This document shows, piece after piece, positions 55,359 to 57,712 of a stretch of DNA of 64,000 nt (the first letter of the stretch is position 1; the number at the start of each line of letters is the position of its first letter). Under the pieces are notes generated by a model. That model searched no databases, was not told the origin of the DNA, and was given only the letters and a program-made list of their open reading frames with translations. The position numbers and the translations under genes were made by a program. Origin of the DNA: Leucothrix pacifica (GTDB lineage: Bacteria; Pseudomonadota; Gammaproteobacteria; Thiotrichales; Thiotrichaceae); NCBI RefSeq assembly GCF_003172875.1, contig NZ_QGKM01000004.1, positions 124,001 through 188,000 of the forward strand, in the 5' to 3' direction.

Positions 55359-57500
55359 TTAATCTGTTTTCGGTACTACCGAACCCGGTACAACTTTTGC
55401 ATCGAACCGCTCGGCCAAGGCTTTGATAAAATCATCTTCCTGAATGTTTTGTTCAGCAGCACGTTGGCGTTCTTTGATATAACGAGCATTATATTGGGCC
55501 GGTGTTTCCTGATTCAACTCTCTGACGGCAACCACCAGCTTTCGTTGCGTGCCAAAGTACTCATTTAACGCCGCTTCAATTTCGTCGATAGCACTGGTTC
55601 GCATCAGCATTTCACTGGCGGTTTCCAGATGCAATTCTATGCGTTGATCATCCTGCTCTGCCAGAATACAGTTTTTCGCAAGTTCTGCCGGTAAACCACT
55701 TAATGATAGTGATTGTACAATGCCATACCATTCATCTGTAGTAGTCGCTGGCATTGGTGTGGTTGGTGCTGAGTGAGTGCTTTGAACGGTTTCTTTTGCA
55801 TCTTGTGCTTCTGCAGGTGCAGGTGCAGGTGCAGGTGCAGGTGCAGGTGCAGGTGCAGGTGCAGGTGCAGGTGCAGGTGCAGCATTGCTTTCTTCAGGTG
55901 ATTCTGCAAGTGTTTGCTCAGCATCATTTTGCTGACCATTGTGATTGTCGGCATCATTATCTGTTGACGAGTCTGAATCACTCACTACAGGCTTATCCGA
56001 CCCTACCGGTTTTGACTCAGTGAGTTTGACATCCACTTCCGGTGCATCAACAAGCTGCGAGAGCTCACTCACTTTACTGGCAACAGGACTCATGGATACC
56101 TTTGCAGAAGGCTCATCATCCCATGGTGGTGGCTCAGGCGGCTTAGCCTGTTCCTGTGCTGCGGCCCTAGCAGTCTCAGCATTTTCAGGCTTCGCAGTGC
56201 CTGGCTGATTGACCATCTGATCATACTCATCCCACGGCGGCGCTGCCTCATCATCCTGCTGCACAGCTGGCTTTGGTGCTGGTGCTGGTGCTGGTGCTGG
56301 CAATGATGTGCTGGACTCAGATTCCTTAGCTATGGTTTTTTTTTTCAAATCCGCAGCATTATCAGACGCAGGCGCATCAGATACCGCAGCCTGAGCATCT
56401 GACGGTGAAGCAGCAACAGGCGCAACCGTCGTTGGGCGGAAAGCCAACATACGCAGCAGCAACATTTCAAACCCACTACGCGGATCAGGCGCTAAGGATA
56501 AATCCCGCCGTCCTGTAATTGCGATTTGATAATAAAGCTGAACATCTTCTTTACTTAACTGACCCGCTAAATCACGAAGATTATCATCATCTTCATCCGC
56601 GCCAGCCACAACCTGAAGCACCGCTAATTGATGCAACATGGCAATCATCGCATCAGTTGCCGCTGCAAAATCCGGTGTAACGCCCGCCATATCCTCAACT
56701 TTATGGATAATACCAGCGCCATCGCCCGCAGCGACCATCTTAATCAAAGCAATCAACGGATCATGAGCAATACTGCCCAACATGTCCTGTACTTCTTTCA
56801 GCTCAATATGGCCATTACCAAACGCAATCGCCTGATCCATCAAACTCAGCGCATCACGCATACTGCCGTCAGCAGCACGGGCAAGTAAACGAATCGAAGC
56901 ATCATCACCCTGAATGCTCTCTTCACTGCTCAAATGTTTGAGGTGTCCGGCGATCATATCAACCGTCATGCGCTTCAGATTAAACTGTAGGCAGCGGGAT
57001 AAAATCGTGACCGGTAATTTTTGCGGATCAGTCGTCGCAAACAGAAATTTGACGTGTGCTGGTGGCTCTTCCAGTGTTTTCAGCAAAGCATTAAAGCTGT
57101 GACCGGACAGCATGTGCACTTCATCGATCAGATAAACTTTAAAACGACCATGCGTCGGTGCGTACTGAACATTATCCAGTAGCTCGCGAGTGTCTTCGAC
57201 TTTAGTCCGAGAGGCCGCATCCACTTCGATCAAATCAATAAAGCGACCAGCGGCTATTTCCTGACACGCCCCACAAGCACCGCAAGGCTCTGAGGTAACG
57301 CCGGTTTCACAGTTCAGGCATTTCGCCAGAATCCGCGCAATCGTCGTCTTACCGACCCCTCGGGTTCCGGTAAATAAATAAGCATGATGAAGACGGTCAT
57401 TATCAAGCGCATTAATCAGTCCACGCAGTACGTGTTGTTGACCAACCATTTCCTTGAAATTTTGTGGACGCCATTTACGCGCGAGAACCTGATAACTCAT
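55359..57500 (-). CDS. dnaX: DNA polymerase III subunits tau and gamma (DnaX)
   Basis: Clamp-loader subunit, 713 residues as tau. The start is ATG 57500 (MSYQVLARKWRP). Walker A is FTGTRGVGKT near residue 47; a zinc finger has CLNCETGV and CGACGAC; YLIDEVHML is Walker B; and the sensor region includes LFATTDPQKLPVT. At K386-K388 the coding strand has ten A residues. Shifting by -1 gives N-H-S-stop, and by +1 gives P-stop, so slippage would yield a gamma of about 390 residues. The tau-specific C-terminus has long Ala-Pro tracts and the DnaB/alpha-binding region. Confidence 0.95.
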   Translation of the reverse strand: MSYQVLARKWRPQNFKEMVGQQHVLRGLINALDNDRLHHAYLFTGTRGVGKTTIARILAKCLNCETGVTSEPCGACGACQEIAAGRFIDLIEVDAASRTKVEDTRELLDNVQYAPTHGRFKVYLIDEVHMLSGHSFNALLKTLEEPPAHVKFLFATTDPQKLPVTILSRCLQFNLKRMTVDMIAGHLKHLSSEESIQGDDASIRLLARAADGSMRDALSLMDQAIAFGNGHIELKEVQDMLGSIAHDPLIALIKMVAAGDGAGIIHKVEDMAGVTPDFAAATDAMIAMLHQLAVLQVVAGADEDDDNLRDLAGQLSKEDVQLYYQIAITGRRDLSLAPDPRSGFEMLLLRMLAFRPTTVAPVAASPSDAQAAVSDAPASDNAADLKKKTIAKESESSTSLPAPAPAPAPKPAVQQDDEAAPPWDEYDQMVNQPGTAKPENAETARAAAQEQAKPPEPPPWDDEPSAKVSMSPVASKVSELSQLVDAPEVDVKLTESKPVGSDKPVVSDSDSSTDNDADNHNGQQNDAEQTLAESPEESNAAPAPAPAPAPAPAPAPAPAPAPAEAQDAKETVQSTHSAPTTPMPATTTDEWYGIVQSLSLSGLPAELAKNCILAEQDDQRIELHLETASEMLMRTSAIDEIEAALNEYFGTQRKLVVAVRELNQETPAQYNARYIKERQRAAEQNIQEDDFIKALAERFDAKVVPGSVVPKTD
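55813..55878. repeat. Hexanucleotide repeat (GCAGGT)11 within dnaX
   Basis: Eleven perfect GCAGGT units on the plus strand, read as alternating Pro-Ala codons in dnaX. A second shorter run, (GGTGCT)4 at 56275-56298, encodes another Ala-Pro tract. Slippage would change tract length without changing frame. Confidence 0.95.
56336..56345 (-). promoter_or_regulatory. Poly-A10 slippage site within dnaX
   Basis: On the coding strand TTG is followed by ten A residues and CCATAGCTAAGG. Frame 0 reads L-K-K-K-T-I-A. The -1 frame reaches TAA after three codons and the +1 frame reaches TAG after one. No Shine-Dalgarno-like element is evident just upstream, so transcriptional slippage (as in Thermus dnaX) is more likely than the E. 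coli ribosomal frameshift type. Confidence 0.65.
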
Positions 57501-57542: not shown

Positions 57543-57640
57543 GCGATCCACATCAGCCGACCCTCGGCGCCCGAGATCACCGCTACAGTTGCTTCCTTCC
57601 GGACCTGGCTGGGTTAACGGTTTATCGTCGCGAGGAGACC
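57543..57640 (-). ncRNA. ffs: Signal recognition particle 4.5S RNA
   Basis: On the minus strand the invariant SRP apical segment CCAGGTCCGGAAGGAAGCA lies at about 57589-57607. Flanking sequence begins GGTCTCCTCGCGACG near 57640 and the 3' side GGGCGCCGAGG can pair back as in the bacterial 4.5S hairpin. Its length of about 98 nt and its position just upstream of dnaX match other gammaproteobacteria. The exact ends are estimated. Confidence 0.9.
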
Positions 57641-57712
57641 AATGCAGATCACCATATTGCAGAACGGAGGATTATGAGGGAAAATCATCTCACTAACAAG
57701 AAGAAATATACT

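Follow-up and report, generated by a model that had tools for sequence, protein, structure and literature searches.

In Escherichia coli, dnaX gives rise to the short gamma product through a programmed -1 ribosomal frameshift at A_AAA_AAG, together with a Shine-Dalgarno (SD) element and a stem-loop. The importance of gamma, and its making outside E. coli and Thermus, have long been debated. In Thermus thermophilus, dnaX carries an A9 run at which transcriptional slippage yields about 50% short product (Larsen et al. 2000, described in PMC1088944). Bacterial RNA polymerase is reported to slip at runs of nine or more A or T, in both directions (PMC6260861), and nine is the length at which Baranov et al. 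found A/T runs to be selected against in many genomes (PMC1088944). Ribosomes of E. coli slide strongly on A11 in vitro and slightly on A9 and A10 (PMC4363877). The GeneTack study describes 17 two-ORF dnaX genes from 12 genera, nine of them with 10 As (PMC3711429), and in Caulobacter crescentus gamma is made by proteolysis of tau (PMC5009743). Both arrangements considered below are already known: frame 0 encodes tau in Thermus and gamma in the GeneTack genes (PMC3711429).

The stretch of DNA analyzed here (64,000 nucleotides, hereafter the window) comes from Leucothrix pacifica and carries a dnaX gene with a run of ten As (Table 1). The predicted product matched the Pfam domains ATPase, lid, domain III, and tau domain V (PF12170, residues 585–703), and its best PDB match was E. 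coli tau/gamma, over residues 1–374. Clamp-loader structures from E. coli (gamma/tau residues 1–373) align to residues 1–362 of the window DnaX, and the tau C-terminal domain of 5fku matches it at 584–709. Given these domain positions, a product ending at residues 389–391 would be a complete clamp-loader subunit without the helicase- and polymerase-binding parts, that is, gamma. A small bacterial SRP RNA (RF00169, 70.9 bits) occupies 57548–57644 of the minus strand, directly upstream of dnaX; a longer GTG-start ORF (57551) would run into it, so the ATG is the likely start. The linker also contains (Ala-Pro)n encoded by two hexanucleotide arrays (TGCAGG x11.8 at 55812–55882 and TGGTGC x4.5 at 56274–56300). 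Ala-Pro repeats of at least four units were found in the window's genus only, with copy numbers from 4 to 16 across species, and in each gene of the genus that has them one array lies just 3' of the A10 tract.

Table 1. Features of the dnaX locus in window coordinates.
Feature	Position	Strand	Description
dnaX CDS	55359..57500	-	713 aa; tau subunit, DNA polymerase III clamp loader; start ATG 57500
Section common to tau and predicted gamma	56442..57500	-	ATPase, lid, domain III; Pfam matches up to residue 353
A10 slippage tract (candidate)	56336..56345	-	AAA AAA AAA A; K386–K388 and first base of T389
+1 frame stop TAG after P	56330..56332	-	read from the sequence
-1 frame stop TAA after N-H-S	56326..56328 (within a base or two)	-	read from the sequence
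Tau-only C-terminal domain V (alpha-binding)	55362..55748	-	missing from predicted gamma

The tract is the sole homopolymer of six or more in the dnaX coding sequence, and the preliminary description had its placement at K386–K388 and the two stops right. Transcripts with one A extra or two fewer would meet the -1 stop, for a predicted gamma of about 391 aa, and those that lack one A or gain two would meet the +1 stop, for about 389 aa. These lengths follow from the sequence and agree with the gamma of about 390 residues proposed earlier; its proposed origin, slippage, is supported by the patterns described below. The candidate slippage locus resembles that of Thermus in having tau in one ORF, whose C-terminal part contains a tract of 9–10 As lying past the clamp-loader domains (the Pfam match to domain III runs to residue 353), both other frames closed close behind the tract (NHS-stop and P-stop), and no need for ribosomal stimulators. 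It differs from Thermus in its gammaproteobacterial host, in having A10 rather than A9, and in its conservation across a whole order.

By base composition alone, one A9 or A10 per 64 kb is not unusual: 64-kb shuffles averaged 1.8 A9 matches, and 48 of 100 had two or more. The significance of the A10 comes instead from its retention in relatives within the order and its rarity in the genome, since pattern counts found three A10 runs in all in 5.02 Mb. A second run (L162, ~1501–1510; G000:C102:14992-15001) lies within a Lys-rich 839-aa ORF, apparently at KKK, and this ORF is possibly another slippage gene. The third (L163, ~1501–1510; G000:C125:31975-31984) is intergenic, and its neighbors, named from their translations, are a sigma-factor-like ORF (minus strand) and a glutathione-synthetase-like ORF (plus strand).

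Conservation was assessed in 63 genomes of the order Thiotrichales, with which the window's family coincides. Many of these were MAGs, and the set covered Thiothrix, Thiolinea, Cocleimonas, and relatives. Counts refer to the 54 intact dnaX genes with a complete linker, and 51 of these carried A9–A11 just past domain III. By length, 46 genes had A10, four A9, one A11, and three A7. The run was located at codons 363–451, occurred in codon phases 0, 1, and 2, and persisted even where the gene reaches 64% GC (L155). Flanks and linker length differed among genes. All three same-genus genomes with a readable run had exactly A10, as in the window gene, so the prediction that close relatives would keep the run was borne out. 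The dnaX genes of L111, L116/L026, and L122 carried a second A9 in the linker besides A10.

Exceptions were few. Two MAGs (G030/L113 and G019/L129) had A7 only and no obvious substitute site; gamma has possibly been lost there, or is made by another route. One further genome (G020) had A9 with the -1 stop 24 codons away, and together with the A7-only MAGs it indicates that the site can be lost. The third A7 gene (G056) was set aside as homopolymer-collapsed and untrustworthy, since its assembly lacks any A10 in 4.5 Mb and its dnaX contains an N and a stop. We also left uncounted an apparent two-ORF gene in G003, in which the frame break is an N assembly gap in an Ala-Pro repeat.

Codon use within the runs shows selection on nucleotides rather than on protein, as judged by comparison with the remainder of the same genes. 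All 151 Lys codons within runs were AAA, compared with 387 AAG among 1327 Lys codons (29%) elsewhere. The flanks diverge into 28 separate contexts, and related sequences were collapsed to these for statistics; the lack of AAG remained far from chance (P about 10^-11.5). In phase-0 A10 genes, the tenth A falls mostly in Thr and Ile codons and in a few Arg codons, and since these are not Lys codons, the run is maintained at the DNA level.

Frame closure behind the run was likewise enriched relative to an expectation drawn from other positions of the same genes. Both non-tau frames stop within eight codons past the run in 26 of 28 contexts (8.1 expected, P 1e-13). Taken alone, the +1 frame stops within five codons in 26 of 28 (10.3 expected, P 2e-10), and the -1 frame is closed in 20 of 28 (13.7 expected, P 0.012). 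After relatives were collapsed, the -1 enrichment was modest and +1 closure was the stronger signal.

In six genomes of the order (G024, G038, G041, G043, G045, and G046), the arrangement is inverted, with a frame-0 stop 1–5 codons past the run and a frame-0 product of 367–381 aa; the preliminary description had missed this inverse form. The tau tail, which ends in the usual domain V sequence, lies in the -1 frame in five of them and in the +1 frame in G041. In these genes, gamma is templated and tau can be reached only by shifting. Differences between the G043 and G046 tails number 23, 20, and 55 at the three codon positions, and this excess at third positions shows purifying selection on the tail, so tau is made and needed. 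The run is A10 in four of the genes (G024, G043, G045, and G046), A9 in G038, and A11 in G041. Having A10, the four are not accounted for by a base miscounted from the common length; the inversions in G038 and G041 could be recent indels or errors. On the DnaX tree, inverted genes fall in at least three places (G024; G038 and G041; G043, G045, and G046), with several of the relevant forks only moderately supported.

These six genes, and one outside the order (G198), resemble those in the GeneTack set: frame 0 encodes gamma, and a shift at A7–A10 gives access to tau. The window gene, with tau in frame 0, is not a two-ORF gene in that sense. In contrast to the GeneTack set, both arrangements occur here within one order and even within one genus (g7), in which tau is the frame-0 product of the other members. 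The main text of the GeneTack paper names neither Thiothrix nor Leucothrix (PMC3711429), and full-text literature searches gave no paper that links dnaX to Leucothrix or slippage to Thiothrix. Fixation across an order of Gammaproteobacteria, with repeated reversal within that order, appears to be new.

Among the linkers of 215 distinct gammaproteobacterial dnaX genes outside the order, A9 or A10 was present in 13, and most had neither a long run nor A_AAA_AAG. The heptamer occurred in frame in 38, with a -1 stop within ten codons in 36 of them. Where the run was A9 or longer, both frames were closed within ten codons in 12 of 13 genes, compared with a base rate of 12% (P 7.5e-11); shorter runs had both frames closed in one of seven (A8) and five of 11 (A7). 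Double closure at A9 but not at A8 also indicates, from evolution, roughly where the threshold for slippage lies. The inverted gene of G198 (L244), from another family of the class, has gamma in frame and a run of A9, with the -1 frame encoding the tau tail.

Using E. coli dnaX as a positive control, we looked for the stimulators of ribosomal frameshifting. No SD-like stimulator was found upstream of the window tract (anti-SD duplex -3.3 kcal/mol, against -7.4 in E. coli), in keeping with the preliminary description, and sites across the order showed no SD enrichment (mean -2.28 kcal/mol, equal to the null of -2.28). Downstream (+4 to +64), where a stem-loop would be expected, predicted folding in the window gene reached only -8.1 kcal/mol compared with -23.2 in E. 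coli, and structure across the order was weaker than in the surrounding linker (-8.75 versus a null of -10.6 kcal/mol). The window gene contains no in-frame A_AAA_AAG with a near -1 stop; the only such heptamer in the order is one extra late site in L125, whose gene also has A10. Since the site lacks the heptamer, an SD, and a hairpin, frameshifting of the E. coli type was rejected. We also considered a 5' hairpin as an aid to RNA-polymerase slippage. The 60 nt upstream of the window tract fold at -21.3 kcal/mol, with the hairpin ending 15 nt before the tract, and there was no clear enrichment across the order; this candidate was rejected. The locus shares with E. coli the gene, the product pair, and a shift past the clamp-loader domains, but its site lacks A_AAA_AAG, SD, and a conserved hairpin, has both alternative frames closed, and may lie in any codon phase. 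In Caulobacter gamma likewise derives from tau, with the difference that proteolysis needs no slippery site.

We propose that the A10 is very probably a selected, programmed slippage site at which RNA polymerase slips, so that one gene yields both tau and gamma. Slippage on ten templated As would produce dnaX mRNAs with 9, 10, 11, 12, or other numbers of As. Those whose number of As is 10 or differs from 10 by 3n would encode the full 713-aa tau, and the remainder would reach TAG or TAA 1–3 codons past the tract, giving a gamma of 389–391 aa that retains the clamp-loader ATPase, lid, and collar and lacks the domains contacting helicase and polymerase. We infer that slippage does occur, at RNA polymerase and not at the ribosome, that its efficiency lies in the tens of percent, and that clamp loaders incorporate gamma.

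The main competing account is translational, with ribosomes shifting at A_AAA_AAA or sliding on poly(A) to make gamma from an unchanged mRNA. Every A9–A11 run includes an in-frame A_AAA_AAA, which is a weak -1 site for ribosomes. Sliding on poly(A) is possible for E. coli ribosomes, and genes seldom contain three AAA codons in a row (PMC4363877). Outside the order, 36 of the 215 dnaX genes have an A_AAA_AAG closely followed by a -1 stop. However, the stimulators seen in E. coli are absent here, the conserved length of 9–11 exceeds what a ribosomal heptamer needs, and a -1 shift would require the -1 stop alone, yet +1 closure is the stronger signal. Double closure outside the order also accompanies runs of nine or more and not A8, and because ribosomes slide only slightly on A9 and A10 in vitro (PMC4363877), sliding alone fits the conserved length poorly. 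We therefore regard a purely translational origin as rather unlikely, though a ribosomal contribution is possible. The three codon phases, closure of both frames, and lack of SD or hairpin enrichment favor the transcriptional type, as the preliminary description had supposed, and transcriptional slippage is the best reading. The idea that a Lys-Lys-Lys linker patch is required, for example for DNA binding, with the A run as a by-product, draws on KKK being encoded in nearly all genes. It is already contradicted by the lack of AAG in runs, by the tenth A in non-Lys codons, by one phase-1 gene that encodes only KKN, and by the closure of two of three frames right past the run, and we give it almost no credence.

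Two further explanations concern the DNA and its assembly. Replication slippage could make the run a hypermutable phase-variation switch between cells rather than a site acting within each cell. Homopolymers mutate readily, relatives have runs of 9, 10, or 11, and the inverted genes with A9 (G038) and A11 (G041) are one base off an A10 tau frame. Nevertheless, cells are expected to require tau, and a phase without it would kill them unless RNA also slips. Four of six inverted genes are exactly A10 with conserved tau tails, and are thus stable arrangements rather than stray indels; we consider such a switch very improbable. The inverted genes might also be sequencing or assembly indels at homopolymers. 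The G056 assembly shows that homopolymer errors are present in this set, and the break in G003 was due to an N gap rather than to the tract. Errors are nonetheless an unlikely explanation overall, as four inverted genes have the commonest length, the separate assemblies G043 and G046 share the same arrangement, and the frame-0 stop lies as close to the run as expected of a used gamma end.

We think it fairly probable that, in this order, the A9–A11 run has stayed while the directly templated product has switched between tau and gamma at least three times. If transcriptional slippage spreads mRNAs over three frames, such switches would alter the tau:gamma ratio with neither protein lost, and indels in the homopolymer would tune the make-up of the clamp loader over evolution. 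An order with a near-universal tract, in all phases and with both tau-default and gamma-default genes, offers a natural experiment. Comparing the tau:gamma ratio of Thiothrix (tau default, A10) with that of Thiolinea disciformis (gamma default, with A9 and a stop in frame 0), both of which are cultured, would be informative about the cell's requirement for gamma and the efficiency of RNA-polymerase slippage.
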